From an uncultured Synergistales bacterium (GTDB lineage Bacteria; Synergistota; Synergistia; Synergistales; Aminobacteriaceae), in the NCBI GenBank assembly GCA_905234075.1, contig CAJOGI010000001.1, positions 62,001 to 126,000 of the forward strand: a stretch of 64,000 bases of DNA. The letters are read 5' to 3'. Below, piece by piece: positions 3-60,006 of the stretch. Both the position numbers and the translations under genes were made by a program. How positions within the stretch are numbered: the stretch's first letter is position 1; each line of letters starts with the position of its first letter. The notes beneath the pieces were generated by a model, which saw nothing but the letters and a program-made list of their open reading frames with translations, had not been told where the DNA came from and did not search any database.

Positions 3-323
3 CACAGGCAAATTAGCTTATTGGGAGGTGAGAGCGTACAAAAAGCACAAAAAAATTTGTCTGTTAATTTAGCTCCGGGCGATTTTGCTGAAAATATTTT
101 AATCGAGGGAATTTGTTTATATAAATTACCAGTCGGTACACGCTTGAAAATTGGTACGGCATTGTGTGAAGTAACTCAGATCGGCAAAGAATGCCACTCT
201 GATTGCGCAATTCGCAAATTAACGGGCGATTGCGTTATGCCGCGTGAGGGGGTTTTTGCAAAGGTTCTCGAGGCGGGCGAAGCTAAAGCAGGAGACTTTG
301 TTCAGGTAGGAGTTAGGAATTAG
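3..323 (+). CDS. MOSC domain protein (C-terminal part, cut by window edge)
   Basis: Sulfurase-type MOSC domain linked to molybdenum cofactor handling. The reading frame is open from base 3 and already reads HRQISLL before the first possible start (TTG at 21), which matches the interior of MOSC proteins, so the true start lies outside the window. Family landmarks visible are the PGDFAENI segment, the LPVGTRL strand, and EVTQIGKECHSDCAIRK with the conserved cysteine, followed by GDCVMPREGVF. In related bacteria this domain can stand alone or be fused to MogA; the missing part decides that. It lies 16 bases before modA, so it is probably in the molybdate operon. Its last codons and TAG stop come from a TAGGAGN repeat. 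Confidence 0.88.
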   Translation, partial: HRQISLLGGESVQKAQKNLSVNLAPGDFAENILIEGICLYKLPVGTRLKIGTALCEVTQIGKECHSDCAIRKLTGDCVMPREGVFAKVLEAGEAKAGDFVQVGVRN

Positions 324-329
324 GAGGTA
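303..329 (+). repeat. TAGGAGN dispersed repeat copy 1
   Basis: Units caggtaggagttagga and taggaggtaa. It encodes the end and stop codon of the MOSC gene and also supplies the AGGAGG ribosome binding site of modA, whose ATG follows 13 bases later. Confidence 0.8.
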
Positions 330-339
330 AAAATTAAGA

Positions 340-1116
340 ATGAAAAAAATTTTTTTATTAGTGTTGGTATTTATCGTTGCTTCTGTGAATGTTGCAGGAG
401 CGGAGAAAAAAGATTTAATAGTCTTTGCGGCGGCCTCAATGACCGAAACAATGAACGAGATCAAAAATTTGTATGAAAATGAAAATCCTGATGTTAATGT
501 AATTTTTAATTTCGACTCGTCGGGAACGCTCAAGACTCAAATTCAAGAGGGCGCGGCGTGTGATCTATTCATCTCTGCAGGACAAAAGCAAATGAACCAA
601 CTTGAGGAGCTTGGATTAATTCTCAAAGGCACGCGGATTAATTTGCTTGAAAATAAAATTGCTCTCGTTATTTCTGAGGGAGGCGCAGCAAATATAAAGA
701 GCTTCGATGATTTTGCAAAGGCCCTCGAAAACGAAAAAATTTTATTTACAATGGGCAACAGCGATGTCCCCGTTGGTCAATATACGCAGAAAATTTTTGC
801 TTATTACGGCCTCGACGAAAAAAAATTAGCTCAAGCAGGAAAAATTACATACGGCTCAAACGTCAAAGAAGTTACAACGCAAGTTAAAGAGTCGAGCGTA
901 GATTGCGGCGTTATATACTGCACGGACGCTTACAGCGCAGGCTTAAAAATTATTGATACGGCCACTTCGGAAATGTGCGGTCAGGTAATTTATCCGGCGG
1001 CGGTTATAAAAGACAGCGCGAATATTAAAGAAGCTGAAAAATTTTTGGATTATCTTAAAAAATCAGAGGTCATGAAAATTTTTGCGGCAGTGGGTTTTTC
1101 TCCGGCACAAAATTAA
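340..1116 (+). CDS. modA: Molybdate ABC transporter substrate-binding protein
   Basis: Periplasmic molybdate (possibly tungstate) binding protein of 258 residues. Residues 1-21 form a signal peptide (basic start, hydrophobic core, cleavage near AGA). The mature part opens with LIVFAAASMTETM, the typical ModA first strand with the oxyanion-binding serine. FNFDSSGTLKTQI and CDLFISAG follow, then VPVGQYTQKIF and later YCTDAYSAG, all usual ModA blocks. A repeat-derived AGGAGG precedes the ATG. modB follows 9 bases after the stop and modC overlaps modB, giving a modABC operon. Sulfate or phosphate binding is unlikely given these motifs and the neighbours. Confidence 0.95.
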   Translation: MKKIFLLVLVFIVASVNVAGAEKKDLIVFAAASMTETMNEIKNLYENENPDVNVIFNFDSSGTLKTQIQEGAACDLFISAGQKQMNQLEELGLILKGTRINLLENKIALVISEGGAANIKSFDDFAKALENEKILFTMGNSDVPVGQYTQKIFAYYGLDEKKLAQAGKITYGSNVKEVTTQVKESSVDCGVIYCTDAYSAGLKIIDTATSEMCGQVIYPAAVIKDSANIKEAEKFLDYLKKSEVMKIFAAVGFSPAQN

Positions 1117-1125
1117 AAATTAAAA

Positions 1126-5500: not shown

Positions 5501-5515
5501 GATGATAAATAAAAA

Positions 5516-5556
5516 AATAAAAAAAGAGGCTCTATGTTACTCACACAAAGCCTCGT
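5516..5556 (-). terminator. Rho-independent terminator of glgB
   Basis: Reading leftwards after the glgB stop, stem GAGGCT (5554-5549) pairs with AGCCTC (5531-5526) and is followed by a run of seven T and another T-rich stretch. Confidence 0.8.
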
Positions 5557-5566
5557 AAATAAAAAA

Positions 5567-11808: not shown

Positions 11809-13965
11809 TCATGAATTAATTTTGTAATTTTCGTAAACAAAAAATTCAGGAGCGATTAAGCCGTACTCTTCGGAAAATTCTTTGATTTTATTTTTGTAAC
11901 TGCCGTTTGAAATTAAAGCCGCGTTCGGAAAAGCCAAAACCCATTTTGAAACCGCAAGCCCCGTTATGTAAGGAGCGCAGGCCAAGTCCGACAGACCCGA
12001 CTCAAGACGCGCAAGGTCAACGCTGACGACAGGGACATACTCATTAAAAAGTTTTTGCCAGTTAATATTATTCTTCAATAAATAATCCGACGGGGCTATC
12101 AAAATATTTTCATCGCTGCTCAACGATGACGAAGTTAATTTTATGCACCCAAACGGCATTAACTCGCTAGTGCAGAGCCATTCAAAAGAACTCGCGCTTC
12201 CTTCGGGCAAAGTTTCGAGCCTTAAATTATGAGAGAGACGCGCAAATAATTTCATGCTCATGTTTCTGTCGGCACTAAGGAGCAGAGCTTTTGTCCTGCC
12301 CTCAAAAATTTTCATAGAGAAAAACCGCGACTTGAAAGAATGTTCACGCATTGAAGTTATTAACGAAGAGAAGAGCGAATAAGAAGTAGGAGGTAGGAGG
12401 CAGGAGGCAGGAGGTAACAGGCAGGCGTTAGGAGGTAGGAGGCAGGAGGTAATGCCTTCACTGGCAGCCGCTAATTGTTTTAATTTTTCGATGATCGCGT
12501 CTAATTTCCATTTTAATAAATCAGTTCTTGAGCGTTCAATAATTTTTAGGGCGCGTTTGGCACGTAAAAATAAGACCCGTTCGCGCGAGTTACGGCCAAG
12601 TTCTTTCAAAAAATTAATTATGCCGTCAATATTTGAATTTTTCCATGCGCTTGAATTTCTGTTGAAAAAATTTTCTACGGCAATCTTCGAGGATAACGCG
12701 ATAACTTCAACTTCAGAGCCGTTAAAATTTTTAATACCATTTTTAATTGCGGCGATGTCGCTTGAAATTTTTTCGTCCGCCGTCCTGATAACTTTTCCGG
12801 CCTCCGTGTCATCGCTCTCTAAATCTACTTGAGTGAGAGCGAAAATTATTTCTTCATTCTTAGCTCCAAGCTCATCAAAAAATTTATAGTCAGAGCCTTT
12901 TAATCTTGAGCGTATCGGAATGACATAAATAATAAAATCAAGTTCCGGCAAAATATTTTTCAAAGCCCCCGCACCCGTGAAAGCGTCCCAGCCCGGAGTG
13001 TCAACGAGGCAGATATTTTCGGGGATTAACGCGCCCGGTATTGTAACCTCGACTCTTGCGGCCTCGTTAATACCTCCTAACTCCTCCCTCCTACCTCCTA
13101 CCTCTTCAATGCGTCCGTCCTGATAAAAAATTTTCGCGGATTTTTTTTCGCCTTCTCTGAAAAAAACAGGGACGTTTTTAATATTTATTTTTTCTCCCGT
13201 GATTGCGTTAATAAGCGCGGATTTTCCGCTTCCTGACAAACCTGCAACGCCGACGTTCAAATATGGAGAGCCCAGCGAACGTTTTAAGGCCCTTAATTGC
13301 GCATCGCCGGTGAGAATATTTAATGCAGCGTCAAGATTTTCATTTAACGAATTAAAAATAAAATCGTTTTGAAGAGAATTTTTTTCTGAAATTTTTAACG
13401 GTGCCGGGAACGGCGAGAAAATTCTCCGGGAAATTTCGTGCCTCAAAATTAAATTTTCCTGCTCTAAATCTTTTTTCAGCGTGATGTCGCTCAGGGTCAT
13501 AACACCGGCAACCCGGACGGCCTCAAGAATTTTTACACGCCCGTAATCGTCAGTGATTTCTATAGTGTCGCCATCGTCAGCATCGGAGAGCCACGCGCTT
13601 AACCCTAAAATTTCACTGCCAAATAATTTCAGCGGCCTGCCGTCGGAATTTCTTTGAATGAAAGCGTCAAGCCTGAAGTTTCTATAAATTCCGTCTCCGC
13701 AATATAATTTCCGGTTAAGCGAGAAAAAATTTTCATGACTGCTGTAAATAATATTTTCAAGTTTAGAAATTTTTGAGTGGTCGGACGGGTGGCAAAGTTC
13801 GTACCATTGGTCTAGAGTTTTCGGACAAGTTGAAATTTCGAGCCTCATAAGGCGTAAAAGTTCAGACGAGAAATAAATATCTCTCGACGGAAAAATTACG
13901 GTCAGTCCCGGCTCGCTCGATGAGTTTATAAAATATTTGCGTTCCCATTCAGAAAATTTAATCAT
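11809..13965 (-). CDS. PAS-domain plus dynamin/HSR1-type GTPase, unusual fusion
   Basis: 718 residues from ATG 13965, preferred over TTG 13995 because AAGGA lies seven bases before it. Residues about 30-120 resemble a PAS_3 sensor (ELCHPSDHSKI, RKLYCGDGIYRNFRLD, LFGSEI) and a second PAS-like edge ends LSDITLKKDLEQEN. A GTPase domain follows: P-loop GLSGSGKSALINA (about 242-254), DTPGW (322-326), TQVD (378-381) in place of NKxD, and SSK (435-437). The C-terminal 180 residues are not recognised. Residues about 287-301 and 506-531 are encoded by TAGGAGN repeats that keep the frame. A signal-responsive membrane or assembly GTPase is an inference only. Confidence 0.75.
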   Translation of the reverse strand: MIKFSEWERKYFINSSSEPGLTVIFPSRDIYFSSELLRLMRLEISTCPKTLDQWYELCHPSDHSKISKLENIIYSSHENFFSLNRKLYCGDGIYRNFRLDAFIQRNSDGRPLKLFGSEILGLSAWLSDADDGDTIEITDDYGRVKILEAVRVAGVMTLSDITLKKDLEQENLILRHEISRRIFSPFPAPLKISEKNSLQNDFIFNSLNENLDAALNILTGDAQLRALKRSLGSPYLNVGVAGLSGSGKSALINAITGEKINIKNVPVFFREGEKKSAKIFYQDGRIEEVGGRREELGGINEAARVEVTIPGALIPENICLVDTPGWDAFTGAGALKNILPELDFIIYVIPIRSRLKGSDYKFFDELGAKNEEIIFALTQVDLESDDTEAGKVIRTADEKISSDIAAIKNGIKNFNGSEVEVIALSSKIAVENFFNRNSSAWKNSNIDGIINFLKELGRNSRERVLFLRAKRALKIIERSRTDLLKWKLDAIIEKLKQLAAASEGITSCLLPPNACLLPPASCLLPPTSYSLFSSLITSMREHSFKSRFFSMKIFEGRTKALLLSADRNMSMKLFARLSHNLRLETLPEGSASSFEWLCTSELMPFGCIKLTSSSLSSDENILIAPSDYLLKNNINWQKLFNEYVPVVSVDLARLESGLSDLACAPYITGLAVSKWVLAFPNAALISNGSYKNKIKEFSEEYGLIAPEFFVYENYKINS
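12385..12450 (+). repeat. TAGGAGN dispersed repeat copy 2, inside the GTPase gene
   Basis: About nine heptamer units such as taggaggcaggaggcagg on the plus strand. Read in the GTPase frame (minus) they encode a Leu-Leu-Pro-Pro-x-Ser-Cys type repeat without a stop. Confidence 0.85.
13071..13106 (-). repeat. TAGGAGN dispersed repeat copy 3, inside the GTPase gene
   Basis: Purine-rich on the minus strand, so in sense orientation relative to the gene and opposite to copy 2. It encodes EEVGGRREELGG in the loop between the P-loop and DTPGW. Confidence 0.85.
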
Positions 13966-14028: not shown

Positions 14029-15312
14029 ATGAAAAAACTTACTTGGGGCGGAGTTGACTGTCAGAAATTAGCCGAAGAATACGGAACGCCTTTATACGTT
14101 TTCGACACGGGAATAATAAAATCGCGCTGCCGTGAACTCCGCGAAACTTTCATGGAACGCTGGGAAAATACGACCGTGCGTTACGCAAGCAAAGCATTTT
14201 TAATAAAGGAAATGGCACGCATAATAAAAAGCGAGGGGCTTGGGCTTGATGTCGTGTCGCTCGGAGAACTTTACACGGCATTGAAAGCCGGCTTTCCTCC
14301 TGAAAAAATCGAGATGAACGGAAATGCCAAGAGCAGCGAAGAAATTTCTTTTGCGATTAATTCCGGCGTAGGGCGCATTATAGTTGACCACCCTGACGAA
14401 TTAAAAACCATCGAACATTTTGCAAGCCTGAAAGGAATTAAGCAGAAAATTTTAATCCGTGTTGCTCCCGGCGTTGACGCTCACACGCACGCTTATATAG
14501 CGACGGGACAGACTGACAGCAAATTCGGACTTCCTGTTGATATTTCTGAAGGCTCAATGTTAGCGCACTCGATTCAATATGCAATGAAGAGCGAATATCT
14601 TGACTTGAGGGGCTTGCATTTCCACGTGGGTTCACAGCTCTTTGACCCTGACGACAACGTAAAGGGGCTCGAAAAAACTATCGAGCTTATAAAAAAATTG
14701 AAGGACGCTTTCAATTTTACGACGAAGGAATTAAATTGCGGAGGCGGCTTCGGAGCTGTGATAAATCCTTCAGTTTCTCCCGTGAAGTGCGCGGATTTCA
14801 CCGACCCTATGATGAAATTGCTGTATGAGGACTGCAAAAAATATAATCTTGAAATTCCGCAGATAATCATCGAGCCGGGCCGCTGGGTAATTTCAGAAGC
14901 CGGAATAACTCTATACAAAGTCGAGAACATCAAAGAACTTCCGAAGCTGACATACATAGCCGTTGACGGAGGAATGGCCGACAATCCGCGCTACGCTCTC
15001 TATCAGGCTGAATATGAAGCCGTTAATGTCAACGATATTGAAGCTCCGGTTTACGATCCCGGCGACGGCACAAAATTTTCAGTCGTTGGAAAATGCTGTG
15101 AGAGCGGAGATATTTTGATTGACGACGCAAAACTCCCGAAGCTCAAAGCCGGCGACATAATCGCGCTGTACAATTCCGGCGCATATACTTTCAGCATGTC
15201 GAGCAGGTATAACAGACTTCAAAGACCCGCAGTAGTTTTTGTTGAGGGCGGCCGGGCCCGGCTTGTGTCGAAGCGTCAGACGCTCGACGACATGATCAAA
15301 GACGAAATATAA
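14029..15312 (+). CDS. lysA: Diaminopimelate decarboxylase
   Basis: PLP enzyme that converts meso-diaminopimelate to lysine, 427 residues, the usual length. The PLP lysine is in VRYASKAF (K55). HVGSQLF, NCGGGFG, EPGRWVI and the C-terminal GKCCESGDIL (catalytic Cys) are in order, then GAYTFSMSSRYN. It starts 34 bases from the divergent GTPase gene with a weak AAAGGA upstream. It is followed by a repeat and two hairpins, so it is probably transcribed alone. Alanine-racemase-fold relatives such as carboxynorspermidine decarboxylase are less likely given the GKCCESGD motif. Confidence 0.95.
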   Translation: MKKLTWGGVDCQKLAEEYGTPLYVFDTGIIKSRCRELRETFMERWENTTVRYASKAFLIKEMARIIKSEGLGLDVVSLGELYTALKAGFPPEKIEMNGNAKSSEEISFAINSGVGRIIVDHPDELKTIEHFASLKGIKQKILIRVAPGVDAHTHAYIATGQTDSKFGLPVDISEGSMLAHSIQYAMKSEYLDLRGLHFHVGSQLFDPDDNVKGLEKTIELIKKLKDAFNFTTKELNCGGGFGAVINPSVSPVKCADFTDPMMKLLYEDCKKYNLEIPQIIIEPGRWVISEAGITLYKVENIKELPKLTYIAVDGGMADNPRYALYQAEYEAVNVNDIEAPVYDPGDGTKFSVVGKCCESGDILIDDAKLPKLKAGDIIALYNSGAYTFSMSSRYNRLQRPAVVFVEGGRARLVSKRQTLDDMIKDEI

Positions 15313-15314
15313 AA

Positions 15315-15348
15315 CAGGTAGGAGTTAGGAGGTAGGAGGTAGGAGGTA
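15315..15348 (+). repeat. TAGGAGN dispersed repeat copy 4
   Basis: Starts three bases after the lysA stop: caggtaggagttagga then three further taggaggt-type units and an A run. Confidence 0.85.
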
Positions 15349-15359
15349 AAAAATAAAAA

Positions 15360-15395
15360 GCACTTAAAAAAATCTTTCGCAAAAAATTTGAGTGC
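15360..15395 (-). terminator. Hairpin with minus-strand T run
   Basis: Nine-pair stem (15360-15368 with 15387-15395). Read leftwards it is followed by TTTTTATTTTTT, read rightwards it has no T tract, so it would stop minus-strand transcription although no minus-strand gene lies here. Confidence 0.5.
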
Positions 15396-15467
15396 CTGAA
15401 AAAAAATTTTGAATCCTAATTTTTTAATTTGCTTCGTGAATTTTTATAAAGCTTGAAAATTTTTGAA

Positions 15468-15497
15468 ATTTTTGTAGGTGTAAAAGTAGTTGCAAAA
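15468..15497 (+). repeat. 30-base repeat, copy A
   Basis: Begins ATTTTTGTAGGTG and ends AGTAGTTGCAAAA. It matches the reverse complement of 63230-63259 at 29 of 30 bases. Confidence 0.8.
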
Positions 15498-15498
15498 A

Positions 15499-15526
15499 AA
15501 CAGCTCTCGGTATTTTAAGAGCTGTT
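15499..15526. terminator. Hairpin between lysA and thrS
   Basis: Perfect nine-pair stem AACAGCTCT / AGAGCTGTT with a ten-base loop. Leftward it continues into seven T, rightward into TTTCGTGTTTATT, so it may stop lysA readthrough and also a minus-strand transcript. Confidence 0.55.
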
Positions 15527-15534
15527 TCGTGTTT

Positions 15535-15563
15535 ATTATATCATAGGTGCTTTTAATTTTCAA
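15535..15563 (-). promoter_or_regulatory. Orphan minus-strand promoter
   Basis: TTGAAA (15563-15558), 17 bases, TATAAT (15540-15535) reading leftwards. The predicted start near 15528 lies right at the hairpin 15526-15499 and no minus-strand gene follows. Confidence 0.5.
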
Positions 15564-15649: not shown

Positions 15650-17551
15650 ATGTTGCAGTTTAAGAATGGCGATAAGTCTTGCGAATTTGATAAGAATGAA
15701 ATAATTTTGCATGACGTTATAAAATCGCTTGGCCTTGATAATAAAAAAATCATAGCGGCAAAATTTAACGGAGAATTAATGGACTTGTCGCGCTGTGTAA
15801 ATTCCGGCGGCGAGGTCGAAGCAGTTTCAGCCGACAGCCCTGAAGGTTTGGAAATTTTACGCCACAGCACGGCGCACTTAATGGCTCAAGCAATTTTGCG
15901 CTTATATCCCGGTTCTCATTTCGGAGTAGGTCCTGCGATTAAGGACGGATTTTATTATGATGTTGACGCAGCCGGAACAATAACGGAAAACGATTTGCCG
16001 AAAATTGAAGCGGAGATGAGAAAAATTGCAGGCGCGGGCGAAAAAGTTTCAAGAGAAGACATGCCAAAAGACGAGGCATTAAAATTTTTCGCCGAAGATC
16101 CTTACAAGACCGAATTAATTTCAGAGATTGACGCTCCTACAGTTTCTGTTTACAAGCAGGGCGAATACGCGGACCTTTGCAGAGGGCCTCACGTTCCCGA
16201 CGCTTCAAAAATTCATAACTTCAAACTTCTTTCAATCGCCGGAGCTTATTGGCGCGGAAGCGAAAAAAATAAAATGCTCACGAGAATTTACGGCACAGCC
16301 TTCGCAAACCCTGACGAGTTAAAAGCATATATAAAGATGCTTGAGGAGGCCAAGCTGAGAGATCACAGAAAACTTGGAAAAGATTTAGACCTCTTCAGCT
16401 TACACGAAGAAGGTCCGGGCTTCCCGTTCTTCCACCCAAAGGGAATGGCAGTCATGAACACTTTGATTGACTTCTGGCGGCGCGAACACAACAAACGCGG
16501 CTACACTGAAATTAAAACTCCGCAGATTTTAGACCGCGAATTATGGATACGTTCGGGACACTGGGATCACTACAGAGAAAATATGTACTTCACTGAAATT
16601 GACGAGAAGCCTTACGCCATTAAGCCCATGAACTGTCCCGGAAGCATTTTGGTTTATAAGACGCAGTTAAGAAGTTACAGAGACTTGCCGATGAGGCTTA
16701 CCGAGCTTGGCTGTGTTCACAGGCACGAGAGGAGCGGAGTTCTACACGGATTAATGCGCGTGCGCTGCTTCACTCAGGACGATGCCCACACATACATTGA
16801 GCCGACAAAAATTAAAGAAGAAGTTACCGCGATTATGGAGCTTGATAAATATTTTTACACTAATGTTTTCGGCTTCAAATATTCAGTCGAACTTTCAACG
16901 CGCCCGGAAGATTCAATGGGAACTGACGAACAGTGGGAGGCTGCCGAGAACGCATTGAAAGACGCTCTTGAAAGCACAAACACCCCCTACACGATTAATC
17001 CCGGCGACGGAGCTTTCTACGGGCCGAAGATTGATTTTCATCTTGAGGACTGTATCGGCAGAACGTGGCAGTGCGGAACTATTCAGCTTGATTTCCAAAT
17101 GCCCGGACGCTTCGGAGTTACCTACATCGGCGAGGACGGAGCAGAACACACGCCCGTTATGATTCACCGCGTTGTTTTCGGAAGCGTTGAGCGTTTCATG
17201 GGAATTTTGATTGAGCATTACGCCGGAGCTTTTCCGTATTGGCTCGCGCCCGTGCAGGTAAAAATTATCCCTATAGCCGACAATCACGTTGACTACGCTA
17301 AAAAATTGCAGGAGACTTTCTTTAATTGGGGGCTTCGCGTTGAGGTTGACACGCGCTCGGAAAAATTAGGAAAGAAGATCCGCGATGCACAGCTTCAGAA
17401 AGTTCCTTATATGCTCGTCGTGGGAGATAAGGAACAGGCTGAAAACAAAGTCGGGGTCCGCGAACGTTCAAAGGGCGATTTAGGCTCAATGACGCTCGAT
17501 GAATTTAAGAACGTTCTCGATAACGAATTTAACCCTTTGAAAAGCAGGTAG
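15650..17551 (+). CDS. thrS: Threonyl-tRNA synthetase
   Basis: Class II aminoacyl-tRNA synthetase that charges tRNA-Thr, 633 residues. Domains in order: N-terminal TGS-like region (1-60), editing domain with HSTAHLMAQA and YADLCRGPH, the catalytic core with MNCPGSILVY (zinc-binding Cys), RLTELGCVHRHERSGVLHGLMRVR (motif 2 region) and the motif 3 region, then the anticodon domain. AAGGCAGG lies upstream of the ATG. A TATACT box at 15598-15603 could be the -10, but a good -35 is not evident. The last residues KSR and the TAG stop come from a TAGGAGN repeat, the same ending as in iscS. Confidence 0.96.
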   Translation: MLQFKNGDKSCEFDKNEIILHDVIKSLGLDNKKIIAAKFNGELMDLSRCVNSGGEVEAVSADSPEGLEILRHSTAHLMAQAILRLYPGSHFGVGPAIKDGFYYDVDAAGTITENDLPKIEAEMRKIAGAGEKVSREDMPKDEALKFFAEDPYKTELISEIDAPTVSVYKQGEYADLCRGPHVPDASKIHNFKLLSIAGAYWRGSEKNKMLTRIYGTAFANPDELKAYIKMLEEAKLRDHRKLGKDLDLFSLHEEGPGFPFFHPKGMAVMNTLIDFWRREHNKRGYTEIKTPQILDRELWIRSGHWDHYRENMYFTEIDEKPYAIKPMNCPGSILVYKTQLRSYRDLPMRLTELGCVHRHERSGVLHGLMRVRCFTQDDAHTYIEPTKIKEEVTAIMELDKYFYTNVFGFKYSVELSTRPEDSMGTDEQWEAAENALKDALESTNTPYTINPGDGAFYGPKIDFHLEDCIGRTWQCGTIQLDFQMPGRFGVTYIGEDGAEHTPVMIHRVVFGSVERFMGILIEHYAGAFPYWLAPVQVKIIPIADNHVDYAKKLQETFFNWGLRVEVDTRSEKLGKKIRDAQLQKVPYMLVVGDKEQAENKVGVRERSKGDLGSMTLDEFKNVLDNEFNPLKSR

Positions 17552-17577
17552 GAATTAGGAGTTAGGAGGTAGGAGGT
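17545..17577 (+). repeat. TAGGAGN dispersed repeat copy 5
   Basis: Includes the thrS stop codon (aaaagcaggtagg), then gaattagga, gttaggaggt and aggaggtt. A short reverse-orientation piece (aattcctacctt) follows at 17587-17598. Confidence 0.85.
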
Positions 17578-17626: not shown

Positions 17627-17983
17627 ATGAAAGATAACGTACTCGAAAAAAGCAAAGCCTTTGCAGTGAGAATTATAAGGCTTTATCAATTTTTAACTAA
17701 TAATAAAAAAGAGTATGTTATTTCAAAACAAATTCTGCGCTCCGGCACCAGCATTGGAGCAAACATTACTGAAGCTAAAAGCGGTTTTAGCAAAAAAGAT
17801 TTTGTAGCTAAAATGTATATAGCTTTCAAAGAATGTTCAGAAACTCTTTATTGGCTGGATTTGCTATTTGAAACAGATTATTTAACGAAAGAGCAATATA
17901 ATTCTATTTATTCTGATACAGTTGAGTTAAGAAAAATTCTTTCATCAATCACAAAAACTGCGCGAGAAAATGAAGATAGTTAA
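17627..17983 (+). CDS. Four-helix bundle protein (S23 / 23S rRNA intervening-sequence family)
   Basis: 118 residues from ATG 17627 (AAGGACAAA directly before; the TTG at 17603 is less likely). The family pattern is clear: MKDNVLEKSKAFAVRIIRLY, ILRSGTSIGANITEAKSGFSKKDFVAKM, AFKECSETLYWLDLL, and LRKILSSITKTARE. These proteins form four-helix bundles; they were first noted within rRNA intervening sequences and their function is unsettled. The gene is bracketed by TAGGAGN repeats in opposite orientation and lies between thrS and the rng operon, suggesting a small mobile or cargo unit. Confidence 0.88.
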   Translation: MKDNVLEKSKAFAVRIIRLYQFLTNNKKEYVISKQILRSGTSIGANITEAKSGFSKKDFVAKMYIAFKECSETLYWLDLLFETDYLTKEQYNSIYSDTVELRKILSSITKTARENEDS

Positions 17984-17998: not shown

Positions 17999-18031
17999 TA
18001 CCTCCTACTTCCTACCTCCTAACTCCTACCT
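17999..18031 (-). repeat. TAGGAGN dispersed repeat copy 6
   Basis: Pyrimidine-rich on the plus strand (acctcctacttcctacctcc). It is the inverted partner of copy 5 around the four-helix-bundle gene and leaves the next gene without a Shine-Dalgarno. Confidence 0.85.
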
Positions 18032-18042
18032 GATAAAAAATT

Positions 18043-22260: not shown

Positions 22261-22285
22261 ATTCCTAACTCCTAATTCCTAACTC
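22261..22285 (-). repeat. TAGGAGN dispersed repeat copy 7
   Basis: Pyrimidine-rich on plus (attcctaactcctaattcc). With aattaggag at 22242-22250 it makes a nine-pair inverted repeat between the convergent surface-protein and guaA genes, possibly serving as a weak terminator. Confidence 0.75.
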
Positions 22286-22297
22286 TTTATTAAAAAA

Positions 22298-23854
22298 TTA
22301 TTCCCATTCAATCGTTGCGGGCGGCTTTGAAGTTACATCAAGAACAACTCGGTTAATGCCTTTCACTTCGTTGCAAATTCTTTTTGAAATTTTATCGAGG
22401 ACATCAAAATCAATTCTTGACCACTCCGCCGTCATAGCGTCTTGTGAATTAATTGCACGCAAAGCTATAACTTCGTTGTAAGTTCTTGAGTCTCCCATGA
22501 CACCGACAGACTTAACCGGCAATAAAACGCAGAACGCCTGCCAGATATTTTTATAAAGCCCGGCGAGTTTTAATTCCTCTCTGAAAATTGCGTCTGCCTC
22601 GCGCAAAACATCGAGCCTTTGCTTTGTAATCTCTCCTAAGCAGCGCACAGCAAGTCCCGGACCGGGAAAAGGCTGACGCGAAATAATTTCTTCGGGCATT
22701 CCGATAATTTTACCTAACTCTCTGACTTCATCTTTGAATAAATCTCTCAACGGCTCAAGCAGTTTCAAATTCATTTTTTCGGGAAGTCCGCCGACGTTGT
22801 GATGAGATTTAATTAACGCCGCGCCCTTTTTGCCTTTAATTCCGCTTTCAATGACATCAGGATAAATTGTCCCCTGCAAAAGCCATTCAGCACCGTGAAT
22901 TTTTTTTGCCTCTTCCTCAAAAACTTCAATAAAGAGCCGTCCGATGATTTTTCTTTTTTGTTCCGGGTCTGTAACTCCTGCAAGCTCGCTCAAAAATTTT
23001 TCCGAAGCGTCAACGTAAATTACATTGAGGCCAAGTGCTTTATACTGCTCCATGACCTGTTCAGGCTCGTGAAGTCTCATTAAGCCGTGATTTACAAAAA
23101 CGCACTGTAAATTTTCGCCGATAGCCTTATTCACAAGCACAGCCGAGACGCTCGAATCGACTCCGCCCGAAAGACCGCAGACAACTTTTTTATCGCCGAC
23201 TTTATTTTTTATGTCGCTGATAGTGCTTTCAACCCAGTCCGATAAATTCCAATCGCCGGAACAGCCGCAAATATCAAAGATAAAATTTCTCAAAATTTTT
23301 TCGCCGTTTTCAGTGTGTACGACTTCGGGGTGAAACTGGAGGCCGAAAAATTTTTTATTAATATTTTCGATTGACGAGATCACTCCGCCTTCGGTTAATG
23401 ATGTCGCAATAAAACCTTCGGGAAGTTTTGAGACGTTATCGCCGTGACTCATAAGCACGTGAATTTCGTCAGGAATTTCTCTTAACAATACGGAATTTTT
23501 TTCGTTCTTTTTGATTAAAGTTACGCCGTATTCTGACGCTCTGCCGGAGCTGACGACACCGCCGGAAAATTTCGCCATTAACTGCATACCGTAGCAAATG
23601 CCAAGAACGGGGCAGGCAGATTCAAAAATTTTTTCGTCAATCATAATTGCGTCGGGGTCATTTACGCTGTCAGGTCCGCCGGAAATTATTATTCCCTTAG
23701 GCGAATAAGACGCGACTGTCTCCGCCGACACGTCCCAATTTAGAATGACGCTGTGTATTTTCATTTCTCTGAGCCGCCGCGCTATCAGCTGCGTGAATTG
23801 AGAGCCGCAGTTAATAATTATTATATTTTCGTTAGTTAAAAAATTTTTTTCCAT
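22298..23854 (-). CDS. guaA: GMP synthase (glutamine-hydrolysing)
   Basis: 518 residues, converts XMP to GMP. The N-terminal class I glutamine amidotransferase has ISGGPDSV, nucleophile C87 in GICYGMQLM and the His/Glu pair in LQFHPEV. The ATP-pyrophosphatase domain has the P-loop GLSGGVDSSV, and the C-terminal dimerisation domain ends VLDVTSKPPATIEWE, the standard end. It begins three bases after iscU, so it is the last gene of an iscS-iscU-guaA transcript. Confidence 0.97.
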   Translation of the reverse strand: MEKNFLTNENIIIINCGSQFTQLIARRLREMKIHSVILNWDVSAETVASYSPKGIIISGGPDSVNDPDAIMIDEKIFESACPVLGICYGMQLMAKFSGGVVSSGRASEYGVTLIKKNEKNSVLLREIPDEIHVLMSHGDNVSKLPEGFIATSLTEGGVISSIENINKKFFGLQFHPEVVHTENGEKILRNFIFDICGCSGDWNLSDWVESTISDIKNKVGDKKVVCGLSGGVDSSVSAVLVNKAIGENLQCVFVNHGLMRLHEPEQVMEQYKALGLNVIYVDASEKFLSELAGVTDPEQKRKIIGRLFIEVFEEEAKKIHGAEWLLQGTIYPDVIESGIKGKKGAALIKSHHNVGGLPEKMNLKLLEPLRDLFKDEVRELGKIIGMPEEIISRQPFPGPGLAVRCLGEITKQRLDVLREADAIFREELKLAGLYKNIWQAFCVLLPVKSVGVMGDSRTYNEVIALRAINSQDAMTAEWSRIDFDVLDKISKRICNEVKGINRVVLDVTSKPPATIEWE

Positions 23855-24274: not shown

Positions 24275-24330
24275 ATTTTTATTTCTCCTTTTTGATTTTA
24301 TTAAATCTTTTACTTCAGGAAATTTTTTTA

Positions 24331-24365
24331 CTTCCTAACTCCTACCTCCTAACTCCTACCTGCTT
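24331..24365 (-). repeat. TAGGAGN dispersed repeat copy 8
   Basis: In the coding direction it reads aaaagcaggtaggagttagg and further units then an A run. It supplies the last codons and TAG stop of iscS. Confidence 0.85.
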
Positions 24366-25546
24366 TTCAAGTATTCTTCCCATAACGGGGACATTTCACG
24401 CCGTCTCGCAACTATCTCCGGCAGGACTTCAAGAACATAATCAATCTGTTCGTCAGTCGTGAGTCTTCCGAGCGTAAATCTTAAAGAACCGTGAGCCATC
24501 TCGTGCTTGAGGCCAAGTGCCAATAACACGTGAGACGGGTCTAAACTTTCTGAAGAACACGCGCTGCCCGTTGAGGCTGAAATTCCTTTTGCGTCAAGGT
24601 CTAATAACAAAGTCTCGCCCTCAACGCCGATAAAACTGAAATTAATGTTATTGGGAAGTCTTTTATCGCCTTTTGAAATATCCGGGCCGTTTAATTTAGC
24701 GTGAGGAATTTTCTGGAGAAGCCCTGCGATTAATTTATCCCGTCTTGCGGAATTTATTTTTTTATCCTCCTCAAGCCTGCTCTTAAAAATTTCCATCGCC
24801 TCGCCGAAGCCGACAATGCCTGCAATGTTTTCCGTGCTTGCCCTGCGGCCTTTCTCCTGCGCTCCGCCGTGAACAAAATTTTCCGGGCGTAAACCTTTTC
24901 TCAAATATAAAGCTCCGACGCCTTTCGGGCCGTACATTTTATGGGCGGACATTGAAAGCATATCAATATTCATCGCTTTAACGTCAATGTCAAGATGCGC
25001 GGCAGCCTGCACTGCGTCAGTGTGGAAAGGAATTTTTTTCTCCCTGCAAAGTGCGCCGATCTCCGCGACGGGCTCAATAGTTCCGACCTCGTTATTAGCA
25101 AACATAATCGAGACTAGAGCGGTCTTATCTGTGATAGCGTTCTTAACGTCTTCGACGCTCACAAAGCCCTCAGCGTCAACAGGAAGATATGTAACTTCAA
25201 CTCCCTCGACTTTTTTAAGATATTCAGCCGTGTGTAAAATTGCGTGATGTTCAATTTGAGTCGTGATTAAATGATTTTTTCCGGCAATCTTAGCTTTTTC
25301 GAGCGTCCCTTTTAATGCCCAGTTGTCCGCCTCAGTTCCTGACCCCGTGAAAAAAATTTCTGAAGGGTCAGCGTTCAGTGCTGCGGCAACCTGACCTCGT
25401 GCCTTTTCAATCGCGGCACGGCTCTTGCGTGAAAATGAATACACGCTCGACGGATTACCGAAATTTTCGCTGAAGTACGGCATCATCGCCTTCAAAACTT
25501 CCGGACTTGTCGGCGTTGTCGCTGTGTGATCCATATAAACAAACAT
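24356..25546 (-). CDS. iscS: Cysteine desulfurase (IscS/NifS type)
   Basis: 396 residues. PLP enzyme taking sulfur (or selenium) from cysteine. DHTATTPT opens the protein, TGSGTEADNWAL binds PLP phosphate, the PLP lysine is K203 in SMSAHKMYGPKG, and the mobile-loop cysteine is in ASTGSACSSES. AAGGAGG lies upstream of the ATG, and a promoter with an extended -10 is at 25584-25613. No iscR regulator is adjacent. With selABD in the window, IscS could also feed selenium to SelD, which is an inference. The C-terminus LKSR and stop are repeat-derived. Confidence 0.95.
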   Translation of the reverse strand: MFVYMDHTATTPTSPEVLKAMMPYFSENFGNPSSVYSFSRKSRAAIEKARGQVAAALNADPSEIFFTGSGTEADNWALKGTLEKAKIAGKNHLITTQIEHHAILHTAEYLKKVEGVEVTYLPVDAEGFVSVEDVKNAITDKTALVSIMFANNEVGTIEPVAEIGALCREKKIPFHTDAVQAAAHLDIDVKAMNIDMLSMSAHKMYGPKGVGALYLRKGLRPENFVHGGAQEKGRRASTENIAGIVGFGEAMEIFKSRLEEDKKINSARRDKLIAGLLQKIPHAKLNGPDISKGDKRLPNNINFSFIGVEGETLLLDLDAKGISASTGSACSSESLDPSHVLLALGLKHEMAHGSLRFTLGRLTTDEQIDYVLEVLPEIVARRREMSPLWEEYLKSR

Positions 25547-27695: not shown

Positions 27696-27770
27696 CAGGT
27701 AGGAGTTAGGAGTTAGCCTGCCTCTGCCTGACGGACAGACAGGTGCCGGACAGGCAGGGAGGTAGGAAGT
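27696..27770 (+). repeat. TAGGAGN dispersed repeat copy 9, interrupted by a palindromic insert
   Basis: caggtaggagttaggagtta begins right after the groEL stop. It is broken by about 42 bases with inverted ends (CCTGCC at 27717-27722, GGCAGG at 27753-27758), then resumes with gaggtaggaagtaaaa. Confidence 0.85.
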
Positions 27771-27810
27771 AAAAGCCCGGCTCCTCAATCCCAAATAAAT
27801 TAAGAAAATA

Positions 27811-31030: not shown

Positions 31031-31090
31031 AGTTAGGAATTAATACTCCTACCTCCTACTTCCTACCTCCTAACTCCTACCTCTTACTTG
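31031..31090 (-). repeat. TAGGAGN dispersed repeat copy 10
   Basis: A short plus-strand unit (agttaggaattaa) is followed by a long pyrimidine-rich run, so the ends can pair. It lies after the third surface protein gene. Confidence 0.8.
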
Positions 31091-31227: not shown

Positions 31228-31716
31228 TTGCAGCAGCTTTACGCATCGTGGCGCATGTCATATATCGAAGCTCCCAAGCATGAGGGCTGTATCTTCTGCG
31301 ATTTTCCGGCAGAACATAAAGACGACGAGCATTTTATCGTTCACAGGGGAAAAACCTGCTTCGTAATTATGAATTTATATCCTTATAATCCCGGACATTT
31401 AATGGTCATTCCGTACAGGCATACAAATATTTATGAAGAGCTGACGGACGAAGAGGCTCTCGAAATGCACAAACTGACTTCAAAAGCCGTGCGCGTCTTG
31501 AAAAAAGTCATGAACCCGGCCGGCTTCAACATGGGAATAAATTTAGGAGAGACCGCCGGAGCAGGAGTTGCCGGTCATCTTCACAGACACATAGTACCGC
31601 GCTGGAACGGCGATAATAATTTTATGCCGGTGCTTGGAGATACGCGGGTTTTGTCCGACGCTATCGAAAACTCGTGGCGGCGTATTAAAGAAGTTTGGGA
31701 TCAAGAAAGCGAATAG
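31228..31716 (+). CDS. HIT family protein (Ap4A phosphorylase-like)
   Basis: 162 residues, TTG start with GAAGGGAAG upstream. Nucleotide hydrolase or transferase of the histidine triad superfamily: HLHRHIVPRW carries His117, His119 and His121, and CIFC (21-24) with a later His suggests the zinc site of the Ap4A phosphorylase branch. NLYPYNPGHLMVIPYRH is the conserved strand. Exact nucleotide substrate cannot be read from the sequence. It is followed by yigZ after a short repeat. Confidence 0.92.
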   Translation: MQQLYASWRMSYIEAPKHEGCIFCDFPAEHKDDEHFIVHRGKTCFVIMNLYPYNPGHLMVIPYRHTNIYEELTDEEALEMHKLTSKAVRVLKKVMNPAGFNMGINLGETAGAGVAGHLHRHIVPRWNGDNNFMPVLGDTRVLSDAIENSWRRIKEVWDQESE

Positions 31717-31738
31717 CAGGCAGGAATTAGGAGGCAAG
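31717..31738 (+). repeat. TAGGAGN dispersed repeat copy 11
   Basis: caggcaggaattaggaggca right after the HIT gene stop; AGGAGG acts as ribosome binding site for the next gene. Confidence 0.75.
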
Positions 31739-38000: not shown

Positions 38001-38025
38001 AGTTAGTGGTTAGGAGTTAGGAATT
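38001..38025 (+). repeat. TAGGAGN dispersed repeat copy 12
   Basis: agttagtggttaggagttag then gaatta on the plus strand, between the wzz-like gene and the racemase gene, antisense to both. Confidence 0.7.
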
Positions 38026-38031
38026 AAAAAA

Positions 38032-38736
38032 TTAAAGCTCGTACAAAAATTTTATGCAGGCATCGCTCAGGGCCTTGAGGCTTGATACCTGACGCTCTAA
38101 AGGCAGGCCGGAGGCTTCGTAAGCTAACGGAAGTTCCGTGCAGCCCATTGTTACAGGGACATCGCGCTCGTGCCAAAGTTCATTGACAACACCGCGCATA
38201 ATTTCGCCTGCGGTTTTCATTTCGCCCGATTTTACGTAGCGTATGCAGGATTGAATTTTTTCCTGCTGGTCTTCCGAAGGCTTTAAGAAATGATAACGCT
38301 TCTCCGCCGCACATGACGGATATATTAAACTTTTTTGAGTTCCGTCGGTTGCCAAGAGCCACGAACAATTTCCCTTGCTCAATTCTTTTGCGGCATCGAC
38401 TGTAACTTCAACGATATGAATCAACGGCACGGGAATTTCACCGCGAAATCTGTCAATGAAATAATGCGCCGTGTTGCATGGAACTGCGAGGACATCTGCT
38501 CCCCATTCGACGAGCTGTAACAAATTTTTTCGGATCACAGGCAGAGGATCAGGGCCAAGCCCCATTAAACCATCGCTGCGGTCGGGCGTGTCAGGGTCAG
38601 AGAGCATTATTATTTTCGGGTGCTGTGAATCGTCCTTCGCCGGAGCATCACGCGCTAAAATTCTTAGAAATTCAGCGCAGGCCGCCGGACCCATTCCTCC
38701 GAGTACGCCTAAAATTTTTTCCGGGCGTGTCAGCAT
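38032..38736 (-). CDS. Aspartate/glutamate racemase family protein
   Basis: 234 residues from ATG 38736, chosen because AAGGGAG lies eight bases before it; the ATG at 38754 has none. Two-Cys racemase fold: ILGVLGGMGPAACAEF at the start, AVPCNTAHYF with the first catalytic Cys, and VTMGCTELPLA with the second. This fits aspartate racemase (YgeA-like) more than MurI. It would produce D-Asp or act on another acidic amino acid. Likely the last gene after mnmG and the DciA-like gene. Confidence 0.9.
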   Translation of the reverse strand: MLTRPEKILGVLGGMGPAACAEFLRILARDAPAKDDSQHPKIIMLSDPDTPDRSDGLMGLGPDPLPVIRKNLLQLVEWGADVLAVPCNTAHYFIDRFRGEIPVPLIHIVEVTVDAAKELSKGNCSWLLATDGTQKSLIYPSCAAEKRYHFLKPSEDQQEKIQSCIRYVKSGEMKTAGEIMRGVVNELWHERDVPVTMGCTELPLAYEASGLPLERQVSSLKALSDACIKFLYEL

Positions 38737-38794
38737 ATAAAAAACTCCCTTCATGTTTTAAATTTATTTTTTGGATTAGTGAAAAAATTATACG

Positions 38795-51014: not shown

Positions 51015-51049
51015 AACTTCCTACTTCCTACCTCCTAACTCCTACCTGC
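51015..51049 (-). repeat. TAGGAGN dispersed repeat copy 13
   Basis: Coding-direction aaaagcaggtaggagttagg and further units, directly after the trxA stop, in the trxA-grdA gap. Confidence 0.85.
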
Positions 51050-51053
51050 TTTT

Positions 51054-51392
51054 TTAAGCGCAGAGTTCGTCAACTTTCGCGGTAATTTCTTCGATAGTTA
51101 AATCATTGCCGCCGAGTCTGGCAACTTCCGCGCCGTCTTTGAAAAATAAGAATGTCGGCTGAGCCATCACCGCCGGTCTGACCATCATAGCGACTCTTCT
51201 ATTTTTTGACGTATCGACTGAACAGAATTTGAACTTGCCCTCGTATTTAGGATTTTCAGCAAGTTCGTGATACTTCGGCATGAGTGCCAAACAAGGCCCG
51301 CACTTCGGCCCCCAGAAGTCGAGGACTGCCGGGACAGGAGAATTTTTGAACTCCTCCTCAAAATTTTCTTTCGTAATTTCGATTATTGCCAT
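51054..51392 (-). CDS. trxA: Thioredoxin
   Basis: 112 residues from ATG 51392 (MAIIEITKENFEEEF; AGGTG upstream), preferred over the longer N-terminus from 51431. Active site is WGPKCGPC, with Lys before the first Cys where most thioredoxins have Trp; this Lys-containing form is common among thioredoxins linked to glycine reductase. The cis-Pro loop is AQPTFLFFKDG. It probably reduces the oxidised form of protein A/B together with TrxB, encoded 5 kb away. It is followed by grdA on the same strand after 159 bases. Confidence 0.93.
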   Translation of the reverse strand: MAIIEITKENFEEEFKNSPVPAVLDFWGPKCGPCLALMPKYHELAENPKYEGKFKFCSVDTSKNRRVAMMVRPAVMAQPTFLFFKDGAEVARLGGNDLTIEEITAKVDELCA

Positions 51393-51494
51393 TTTATTTT
51401 TCACCTCGTTTTTAATATTAATATTATACATTAATATTTTTCTGCCGATGTTATAATTAATTCACAGTCATTAAAAAAAACGTGAGAAATATAA

Positions 51495-55993: not shown

Positions 55994-56005
55994 GAGGTAT
56001 CATTT

Positions 56006-56800: not shown

Positions 56801-56827
56801 AATTAAAGAAGGGAATTTTTTATAATC

Positions 56828-58030: not shown

Positions 58031-58056
58031 AAAAAACGGCCTGCCCTAAGGCAGGC
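58031..58056 (-). terminator. Terminator of ilvE-ispE
   Basis: GCCTGCC (58039-58045), loop CTAA, GGCAGGC (58050-58056). Leftward it continues CGTTTTTTTT, so it fits the minus-strand ispE end and abuts the trxB stop. Confidence 0.8.
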
Positions 58057-58066
58057 TGACTCCTCA

Positions 58067-58864
58067 CTAAAAATACAAAACGTTTTTAATATAGCTCGGC
58101 CATTTAATTAATTTCGGTGCAGAGTTAAAGACTCCGAATGCCGAGCTCCCTGAACCCGTTACTCCCCAAGCGTCAGCTCCGGCCTTATCAAAAATTGAAA
58201 ATAATTCGTTATATTTCGGGTGTTCCTTTATTAAGACTTTTATAAAATCATTAGGCAGAAGTCCGACTTTTTTCCCTGCGTTCGCGTAATACATGTCGCG
58301 CATTTCCGTTCGAGCTAATAAAGTGTCAACCCCGTAGCCTATAGCGTCAAGTTCTTTATATGCGTTCGCTGTGTCTGTCTGCCAGTCGGGAATAACTATA
58401 ATTCCATGAGGGATGTTTACGTCTTTTTTAGCAGGCTCAATATGTTCTCCAATTCCTGAGACTATAGCCATATTAAAATTTGAGCATAAAAAAGGGACAT
58501 CGGCTCCGACTTTCGCGGCAATTTTTTCAGCTCCCAGCCACCATAAAACAGCGGCAGCATTTCCTGAACCTGCTCCAAGTCCCGAACCGGGCGGAATACT
58601 TTTATGAATTTTTACGTTCAGATACGGAATTTTGAAGCCTTCTTCGCGTGCAATTCTTAGAGCTTTGATAATTATATTTTCGCCTTTTATAGGAATGTTT
58701 GCATTTACAACGTCAATTCTTGCCGTTGATTCTGAAATATAAAGAACATCGCCGGAGGGAATTTTTAAGAAGGTCGAAACGATATTATGATAACCGTCTG
58801 ACCTCCTATTAATAACCCTTAACGTTAAATTTAATTTTGCAAACGTAGGAAGAATTATACGCAT
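58067..58864 (-). CDS. ispE: 4-diphosphocytidyl-2-C-methyl-D-erythritol kinase
   Basis: 265 residues. GHMP kinase of the MEP isoprenoid pathway. FAKLNLTLRVINRRSDGYHNI is the substrate-binding start, IPPGSGLGAGSGNAAAVL the ATP-binding GHMP motif 2, and WGVTGSGSSAFGVF motif 3. Slightly short of the usual 280-290. Its start overlaps the end of ilvE by ten bases. Confidence 0.94.
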   Translation of the reverse strand: MRIILPTFAKLNLTLRVINRRSDGYHNIVSTFLKIPSGDVLYISESTARIDVVNANIPIKGENIIIKALRIAREEGFKIPYLNVKIHKSIPPGSGLGAGSGNAAAVLWWLGAEKIAAKVGADVPFLCSNFNMAIVSGIGEHIEPAKKDVNIPHGIIVIPDWQTDTANAYKELDAIGYGVDTLLARTEMRDMYYANAGKKVGLLPNDFIKVLIKEHPKYNELFSIFDKAGADAWGVTGSGSSAFGVFNSAPKLIKWPSYIKNVLYF

Positions 58865-59919
58865 TCAGTCCACCCAAAAGGATCAGGACGCTTGCCCCAC
58901 TGAATGCCCGTGAGTTCGTCATATAATTTCTGCGCAATCGGCCCGATTTTGAAGTCATTGACAGTATATTTCTTGTCGTTGTAGAAAAGTTCTCCGATCG
59001 GCGAAATTACAGCTGCTGTTCCCGTTCCGAAGGCTTCTTCAAGTTTTCCGCTCTCTGCCGCGCCGATTAACTCGTCAACGCTCAATAATCTTTCTTCAGC
59101 AGGAACGCCCCAGCTTCTTAAAACTTCGAGGCATGATTTACGGGTAATGCCGCCTAGTATTGAGCCGTTCTCAAGCGTAGGAGTTACGACAGTGCCGTCA
59201 ATTTTGAACATTACGTTCATTGCTCCGACTTCTTCAATATATTTTCTGTGGACTCCGTCGAGCCACAGGACCTGCGAATATCCTTTTTCCATTGCCCGGT
59301 CGCCTGCTCTGTTGCTTGCCGCATAATTTCCTCCGCATTTCGTGTAGCCCGTGCCGCCGCGTACCGCTCTTACGTCTTCAGTTTCAAGCATGATTTTTAC
59401 GGGCTTAATTCCTTCAGCAAAGTAACTTGCGCTCGGTGAAAGAATTATCATGAATTTTGCCTCGTGTATTCCGTGAAGAGCAAGCTCCGGGTCGAGCGAA
59501 AATAAGAACGGGCGAATATAAAGCGATGTTCCTTCAGCGTGAGGCACCCAATTTTTATCGACTTTAACAACTTCTCTGACAGCTTCAAGGAAAATGTCAT
59601 TAGGAATTTCCGGAAGTCCGATTCTTTCTGCGGAAATGTTAATTCTTTTTGCGTTTTCCATCGGCCTGAAAAGATGAATTGAGCCGTCAGCCCAGCGGTA
59701 TGCTTTCATGCCTTCAAAAACTTCGTTGGCATAGTGAAGAACGCTCGCGGCCGGGTTAATTTCTATAGGGCCGTAAGGAATTATTCTCGCGTTGTGCCAT
59801 TTTTTTGCGTCTGTGTAGTCCATTACGAACATGTGATCAGAAAAAACTGAACCGAAACCTAATTTGTCCTCTGGCGGCAGATGGCCGGGATTAGGGTTTT
59901 TTGTGAAACTAATCTGCAT
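58855..59919 (-). CDS. ilvE: Branched-chain amino acid aminotransferase
   Basis: 354 residues, the class IIA (BCAT2-like) length. PLP lysine in GTGYTKCGGNYAAS; LHYANEVFEGMKAYR, LYIRPFLFS, EVGAMNVMF and GTGTAAVISPIG are standard blocks. It makes or breaks down valine, leucine and isoleucine. AAGGAGG precedes the ATG. Upstream is the MgtC-like gene separated by a repeat. Confidence 0.96.
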   Translation of the reverse strand: MQISFTKNPNPGHLPPEDKLGFGSVFSDHMFVMDYTDAKKWHNARIIPYGPIEINPAASVLHYANEVFEGMKAYRWADGSIHLFRPMENAKRINISAERIGLPEIPNDIFLEAVREVVKVDKNWVPHAEGTSLYIRPFLFSLDPELALHGIHEAKFMIILSPSASYFAEGIKPVKIMLETEDVRAVRGGTGYTKCGGNYAASNRAGDRAMEKGYSQVLWLDGVHRKYIEEVGAMNVMFKIDGTVVTPTLENGSILGGITRKSCLEVLRSWGVPAEERLLSVDELIGAAESGKLEEAFGTGTAAVISPIGELFYNDKKYTVNDFKIGPIAQKLYDELTGIQWGKRPDPFGWTECV

Positions 59920-59974
59920 AAAAATTTTTCCTCCTTCTAAACTTGCTTAGGAAGCAGATAGCAGTTTTTCTTTC

Positions 59975-60006
59975 AACTCCTACCTCCTAACTCCTAACTC
60001 CTACCT
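59975..60006 (-). repeat. TAGGAGN dispersed repeat copy 14
   Basis: Coding direction caggtaggagttaggagtta and further units begin five bases after the MgtC-like gene stop. Confidence 0.85.

Follow-up and report, generated by a model that had tools for sequence, protein, structure and literature searches.

A small selfish element with a four-helix-bundle gene as the probable source of dispersed TAGGAGN heptamer arrays in a Synergistales genome

The window analysed here is a stretch of 64,000 nucleotides from an uncultured Synergistales bacterium (assembly GCA_905234075.1, contig CAJOGI010000001.1, positions 62,001 to 126,000), in which arrays of the seven-base unit TAGGAGN recur, mostly at the ends of genes. 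We conclude that a small selfish element probably gave rise to these arrays, which would be scattered copies of its ends. The complete form of the element would consist of a heptamer array with the G-rich strand directed inward, a gene for a four-helix-bundle protein of the IVP/S23 type, and the same array in inverted orientation; one such unit is located within the window. An earlier note, made from the letters of the window alone, had named a spreading small element among several possible explanations of the repeat, and this suggestion is well supported by polarised, lineage-specific insertions of arrays together with the cognate gene-bearing form. The genome that holds the window, designated G000, is a metagenome-assembled genome of 1.84 Mb (1,838 kb) in 18 contigs that is 100% complete, of which 776 kb (C1:1-328000, the whole of C2 and C4:1-120000) was analysed base by base, with genes called by a simple custom script rather than a standard gene finder. 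The close relative G007 shares 91-97% DNA identity with G000 across long matches.

Results

An IVP gene enclosed by inverted TAGGAGN arms

The arrays at 17545 (+) and 17999 (-) are the inverted, inward-facing arms of a single 488-bp unit that encloses a gene of the PF05635 family (Table 1). The match (E 1.3e-30, 106 bits, cut-off 33.8) is the only one to this family in G000, and the nearest solved structure to the encoded protein is 2rld (E 7.6e-40), an entry with five chains. No relative of the window IVP was found in the viral contig collection. Upstream of the unit resides a class II tRNA synthetase gene with the threonyl/alanyl SAD domain (Pfam). At the orthologous site the 488-bp unit is absent from G007, where the flanks are 91-93% identical, as well as from G025, G008 and G014. 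The synthetase gene of G007 runs AAA AAC TAA AAATTG into the next gene, and the G000 site reads AAA AGC AGG TAG into the array, followed by the IVP gene and the inverted array, which leads to CCTACCTGA TAAAAAATT. Since the four relatives are without the unit at this site, it was most likely gained by G000, directly before the old stop codon.

Heptamer arrays of the window and their position at gene ends

All 14 places at which the earlier note had located arrays do hold 7-base arrays, to within a few bases. With at most one mismatch, TAGGAGNTAGGAG yields 35 matches in the window versus 0.06 expected from shuffles, and these are located at 13 of the 14 places; the array at 31717 is more degenerate and was recovered with a looser three-unit pattern. 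The commonest units are TAGGAGT, TAGGAGG, TAGGAAT and TAGGAAG, which contain tracts of GG only and no GGG. The common edges described from the window are also the most frequent in the 776-kb sample, namely CAGG on the left (49 of 124 arrays) and GTAAA on the right (20 of 124). Nine of the 14 window arrays are in sense orientation and start at or just past a stop codon, as had been claimed for most of them (307, 15312, 17542, 22262(-), 24332(-), 27693, 31714, 51018(-) and 59970(-)), and in two cases (307-326 and 17542-17575) the stop TAG of the preceding gene is the array's own TAG. Three others are antisense and separated from a stop by 8 to 23 nt (17995(-), 31046(-) and 38004), and two reside within a dynamin-like gene (12380 and 13074(-)).

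The arrays are enriched throughout the genome. The relaxed three-unit pattern BAGGARNBAGGARNBAGGAR, for which overlapping matches in one array were counted separately and the reversed pattern served as control, has 445 matches in G000 versus 1 for the control. The same pattern (control in brackets) has 380 matches in G007 (0), 316 in G014 (12), 244 in G025 (3), 241 in G094 (0) and 85 in G008 (0), and in the other 37 genomes, out of 43 in the genus, the number ranges from 0 to 33. With six array-rich and 37 array-poor genomes, the heptamer repeat has therefore bloomed in part of one genus.

The 776-kb sample holds 124 arrays, 112 intergenic and 12 within called genes, with three units in 21, four in 43, five in 45, six in 14 and ten in one. 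Their placement is not random, in line with the proposal that gene ends are preferred: of the 112 that are intergenic, 75 are at most 20 nt away from the stop of a gene in sense orientation, versus 11.4 expected under random intergenic placement with random strand. For the other gene ends within the same distance, the counts are 12 versus 9.9 (antisense stop), 5 versus 13.9 (antisense start) and 6 versus 10.1 (sense start). A gene-end position in sense orientation is thus strongly supported.

Probable gene-less copies with and without an inverted partner

A C-rich inverted partner is found within 130 nt downstream of 42 of the 124 arrays and within 120 nt upstream of three, counts in which both arms of at least four hairpins were entered as separate arrays; the same loose search at array-free gene ends finds a partner at 35 of 551. 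The preponderance of downstream partners means that the G-rich arm nearly always comes first, which is the geometry of the IVP element minus the gene. Arrays without an inverted partner look like single arms. Different forms can be observed at one site, as at the end of a ComM-like gene (Mg-chelatase family), where G014 has arms and an IVP gene, G007 has arms with few bases between them and G000 has a worn hairpin. At C1:166066 a short loop joins the arms in G000, and a small open reading frame (ORF) is enclosed by the arms in G007. By eye, G007 (L236) carries small RelB/RelE-type toxin-antitoxin-like ORFs beside or between the arrays of C1:161100 and C1:166066, and G000 is without them.

Lineage-specific insertions and changes of unit number

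Of the 124 arrays, 59 are comparable between G000 and G007: 26 agree in unit number, 22 do not, seven are absent from G007 or reduced there, and four are affected by large indels. The reverse comparison gives seven missing or reduced among 58 comparable arrays of 110. Three insertions are cleanly polarised as specific to G000 (C1:155107, C1:156466 and C2:203347) by inspection of the sites in G007, G025, G008, G014, G013 and G012. The arrays at C2:203347 and C1:155107 are present in none of these six relatives, and other sequence occupies the C1:155107 junction in G008 and G013. The array at C1:156466 is likewise present in none, save that a different array stands behind the same stop in G014. 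The new arrays at C1:156466 and C2:203347 supply the Shine-Dalgarno word and a new start for the next called gene, which encodes an FtsX permease after C1:156466; the gene at C2:203347 is RsmB-like (Pfam).

A Y1 (HUH) transposase (PF01797) has no match in G000, G007 or G014 and a reverse transcriptase (PF00078) has none in G000, so that both were rejected as mobilisers in G000; other transposase families were not searched.

Period-7 arms at IVP genes of other bacteria

Arms with a period of 7 nt also flank IVP genes elsewhere. In a test that scores self-match at lag 7 on both flanks of an IVP gene, 21 of 50 genome loci pass versus one of 1520 pseudo-elements, and at the control lags 4-6 and 8-13 between none and two of the 50 do so. 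These loci comprise 24 from Synergistota (the matches with a stored locus, out of 26 above the cut-off) and 26 from genomes reached through the 17-mer CAGGTAGGAGTTAGGAG, where 50 matches lie above the cut-off, 21 are without a stored locus, and the partial matches L191 and L194 as well as L175 (same place as L146) were dropped. The Synergistota loci were not picked by motif, and 12 of the 24 pass. Among annotated plasmid loci, 13 of 14 pass at lag 7 and none at other lags, the 14 records having been picked by us for spread from 25 found. Four armed plasmid IVP genes (L286, L295, L296 and L299) reside within defence operons, located between the paired genes hsdS-type/hsdR, drmD/pglX and cas2/cas1 or, in one case, before cas1.

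The arms of the 34 passing loci are inverted in 26 cases, direct in five and unclear in three, and their heptamers vary between loci, including AGTGGNN, GGAAACC, GGGTCNC, AATTCGN and others. Arms of the TTAGGAG type are found at IVP genes of Butyricicoccus (L174), WOR-3 (L195), Treponema (L180), Bacteroidetes (L198) and a cyanobacterium (L186). Arm type, with labels assigned by us and with the genomes of TTAGGAG-type arms selected through the motif, tracks the IVP tree, requiring four changes (shuffled mean 7.6; 0 of 500 as low) when one of the 50 proteins (75 aa) is excluded. An IVP gene above the cut-off is present in 12 of the 19 genomes reached through CAGGTAGGAGTTAGGAG versus 17 of 185 Synergistota, a base rate that refers to Synergistota only; G007, which is the source of many CAGGTAGGAGTTAGGAG matches and has no IVP gene, was excluded from the 19. 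While matches to the 17-mer in unrelated genomes could arise by chance given the size of the collection, several of them lie in longer arrays. Dispersed arrays are in excess over control in G199 and G039, with one motif each.

Features of the window

Several arrays of Table 1 bear on neighbouring genes or recur in relatives. For the gene at 340, the nearest Shine-Dalgarno word is the last AGGAGG of the array at 303..332, and for the gene at 31740 it lies in the array at 31714..31737. C-rich units follow the array at 22261..22288, and the pair could fold as a hairpin. A version of the array at 24329..24365 is found in G007, G025 and G014, and none was seen in G006, G012, G013 or G015; behind the cpn60 stop, G025 and G014 have other arrays, and G013, G012, G006 and G015 have none.

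Table 1. Heptamer arrays and the IVP gene of the window
Feature	Position	Strand	Remarks
TAGGAGN array	303..332	+	Third unit carries the upstream gene's stop TAG (321-323)
Degenerate 10-unit array	12380..12451	+	Antisense within dynamin-like GTPase gene (Pfam PF00350/PF01926)
Array	13071..13107	-	Sense, within the same dynamin-like GTPase gene, facing the 12380 array
Array	15312..15352	+	Immediately past stop of PLP (pyridoxal phosphate) decarboxylase gene
Left G-rich arm of complete IVP element	17545..17577	+	Carries the synthetase gene's stop TAG (17549-17551)
PF05635 gene (23S rRNA IVP, four-helix bundle)	17627..17983	+	118 aa from ATG
Right C-rich inverted arm of complete IVP element	17999..18032	-	Ends CCTACCTG
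Array	22261..22288	-	Between convergent genes; sense to gene 22298-23854(-)
Array	24329..24365	-	Overlaps stop of gene 24356-25546(-)
Array	27696..27790	+	Immediately past stop of cpn60 chaperonin gene; split by CCTGCC..GGCAGG palindrome
Array	31031..31087	-	Antisense to gene ending at 31022; same in G007
Short degenerate array	31714..31737	+	At stop codon (31716)
Degenerate array	38001..38027	+	Antisense, near stop of gene 38032-38754(-)
Array	51015..51051	-	2 nt past stop of gene 51054-51431(-)
Array	59970..60010	-	Immediately past stop of gene 60011-60742(-)

The two inward-facing arrays within the dynamin-like gene (12380-13107) are both found in G007, with related arrays in G014, and would be translated if the gene call is right. 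Palindromes resembling repetitive extragenic palindromes (REP; CCTGCC..GGCAGG) lie inside heptamer arrays at 27717-27765 and in the G007 counterpart of 31717, as if the arrays were targets of another repeat. A second dispersed repeat of about 100-200 bp, AT-rich and located directly behind an array (15360-15560), gives 30 BLAST pieces, including itself, in the 776-kb sample; G007 also has many matches, and there is no Rfam match at gathering score. Nine-base repeats (GGCGGCAAT and similar) occur at 28368-28924 within a large gene that is, as a guess, perhaps that of a surface protein.

Discussion

In the scheme that we favour, the 488-bp unit would represent the complete element, and the other copies would have lost, or never had, the IVP gene. 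Approximately one third of the gene-less copies would retain an inverted partner, often worn, as hairpins that resemble miniature inverted-repeat transposable elements (MITEs), and the remainder would be single arms, mostly of three to six units. The element may land at intergenic or stop-proximal sites, and purifying selection would then keep arrays chiefly just behind stops in sense orientation. Sense arrays could survive there because the array brings its own stops (TAG every 7 nt, in all three frames) and its own Shine-Dalgarno word, whereas antisense arrays could be disfavoured because the mRNA would then contain CCUCC, which might block Shine-Dalgarno sites; indeed, the sense bias could result from selection alone. 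The weakest step of the scheme is that the IVP protein would bind the heptamer array, as DNA or as an RNA hairpin, and thereby drive or protect its spread. Such binding is our preferred but unproven explanation, and strand transfer itself may be carried out by host replication; template switching by the host is the main rival for the movement itself.

Several observations weigh against the selfish-element reading. More than half of the genome IVP loci (29 of 50) fail the two-flank test, including L160, L167, L161, L163 and L169, which have no array at all, and the notion that arms are always inverted was rejected given the five direct cases among 34 two-armed loci. That every IVP carrier has dispersed arrays was likewise rejected, as most sampled carriers are without an excess: there is none over control in the samples of G004, G048, G178, G072 and G197, and at best a slight one in that of G115. 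Within the genus, six genomes are rich in arrays, yet an intact IVP gene was seen only in G000 and G014; the copy in G025 is broken, and none was seen in G007, G008 and G094, which are 74-80% complete. The site of the complete element is not wholly motif-free in every relative, G008 having a short array-like stretch there (GCAGGATTGAGGAATGAG). In addition, each of the three polarised insertions consists of one arm only, with neither a gene nor a complete second arm. Target-site duplications show no excess over the 124 arrays (14 of at least 7 nt versus 12.5 in permuted pairs) and were rejected as a general signature; convincing direct repeats are seen only at C2:203347 (10 bp, TGCGCGGAAT) and C1:34701 (8 bp, TTTATTTT).

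Part of this evidence would suit a self-spreading satellite, in which replication slippage and template switching alone multiply the arrays and the IVP genes either ride along as passengers or are favoured where arrays are abundant. Of the alternatives this one survives best, but we regard it as rather unlikely. It would accommodate the variation of unit number at 22 of 59 comparable sites, the single-arm form of the new insertions, the direct arms, the uneven dispersal among IVP carriers, the many arrays of G007, G008 and G094, in which no IVP gene was seen, and the lack of the mobiliser matches looked for in G000. However, a passenger would not be expected to be flanked by period-7 arms in unrelated bacteria, as the IVP genes are, mostly with the arms inverted and with a heptamer that changes from case to case. 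At C2:203347 and C1:156466, moreover, G007 and G025 have no seed heptamer at the place of the G000 array.

It is improbable that the arrays are selected translational cis-elements at which ribosomes are halted in every frame and then loaded again on AGGAGG to translate the following gene, a role that corresponds to the ribosome capture or recycling named in the earlier note. The 75 intergenic arrays at sense stop codons would be expected of such a role, as would the 10 of 124 arrays in which the next gene has its best-placed Shine-Dalgarno word and the separate, different arrays behind the same permease-gene stop in G000 and G014. Yet a same-strand start follows within 40 nt in only 21 of the 124 arrays, 10 of the 59 intergenic arrays of the first 388 kb stand between convergent genes, many relatives in the genus are without arrays, and unit number is kept between sister species in only 26 of the 59 comparable arrays. 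Moreover, a Shine-Dalgarno role accounts neither for arrays without a gene just downstream nor for the inverted partners.

Least probable is that the arrays act at 3' ends, whether as two-tier G-quadruplexes, as sites for RNase III or as terminators of transcription. In favour of such a role, the 42 arrays with an inverted partner could, by sequence, form hairpins, often with a T-rich or A-rich loop, the Coxiella intervening sequence is excised by RNase III (PMC4990558), and heptamer oligonucleotides of Xanthomonas and Nostoc fold as G-quadruplexes in vitro (PMC4692102). However, the unit has GG rather than GGG, and the window has no Rfam match at gathering score. Arrays also occur where, in relatives, the stop of one gene overlaps or nearly overlaps the start of the next co-directional one, and a terminator should be harmful there.

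Returning to the selfish element, we suggest more tentatively a wider possibility, which we would not rate as high as an even chance, namely that IVP/S23 proteins as a family are sequence-specific partners of heptamer arrays. The arms of each would be written in a particular heptamer dialect, and the protein, which would form a ring if it resembles 2rld, would read the 7-nt period and make the array spread. If true, this would define a selfish system that resembles REPtrons without a transposase, and the unexplained heptamer repeats known from several phyla would share a single origin with the intervening sequences of 23S rRNA. Two old puzzles are joined here, the dispersed bacterial heptamer arrays of no known origin and the widespread family annotated as 'four helix bundle protein'. 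Should the IVP genes and the heptamer arms form one system, a widespread hypothetical gene would gain a testable role, and a new minimal mobile element of about 490 bp with no transposase of its own would be at hand, one that can supply its host with stop codons and ribosome-binding sites.

Comparison with known systems

The complete element is reminiscent of systems of REP and their associated RAYT transposases (REPtrons), in which inverted copies of a short repeat stand on either side of one gene and further copies are scattered over intergenic regions. The IVP gene of G000 is similarly flanked by inverted copies of a dispersed repeat, but the IVP protein is not a Y1 transposase, PF01797 being without a match in G000, and the repeat is a heptamer array rather than a palindrome. 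The Avd protein of diversity-generating retroelements is a relative of IVP; G000 differs from these systems in having no match to a reverse transcriptase (PF00078). A comparison with MITEs and other derivatives of DNA transposons is limited by the inverted partner being present in 42 of 124 arrays, the rest looking like single arms, and by the lack of an excess of target-site duplications.

The IVP family is best known from the intervening sequence (IVS) of 23S rRNA, which resembles the G000 element in that terminal inverted repeats enclose an IVP gene of about 120 aa. In contrast, the G000 unit does not reside in a 23S rRNA gene; it stands at the stop codon of a tRNA synthetase gene, with protein genes on both sides, and gene-less array copies are dispersed through G000. 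For the IVS of Coxiella, terminal inverted repeats and heptameric direct repeats before the S23p ORF are reported, a further likeness (PMC4990558). Among the literature matches listed, no paper ties IVP genes to heptamer arrays beyond this IVS, most subscription papers being outside the coverage.

Heptamer arrays have been described in other phyla, and the parts of the three sources available give no known origin for them (PMC4692102, PMC4679880, PMC2700814). Geobacter metallireducens has 49 copies of a four-unit heptamer element, regarded as putative regulatory elements, and the portion of that report available makes no mention of four-helix or S23 proteins (PMC2700814). The TAACTGA heptamers of Beggiatoaceae are likewise dispersed intergenic arrays, but lie mostly just before start codons, whereas those of G000 lie after stops; their author suggests that a repeat-binding protein might be the mobile part (PMC4679880). 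In the accessible part of a further source, the GGGNATC heptamers of Xanthomonas and Nostoc differ from the G000 arrays in having GGG rather than GG and in having no link to an IVP gene (PMC4692102). They are described there as intergenic, with a period of 7 and a preference for four units, lying within 50 bp of a stop on the sense strand and also upstream on the antisense strand, and occurring singly or as inverted pairs; period, four-unit preference, intergenic location, proximity to a sense stop and the single or inverted-pair arrangement are all shared by the arrays of G000 (PMC4692102).

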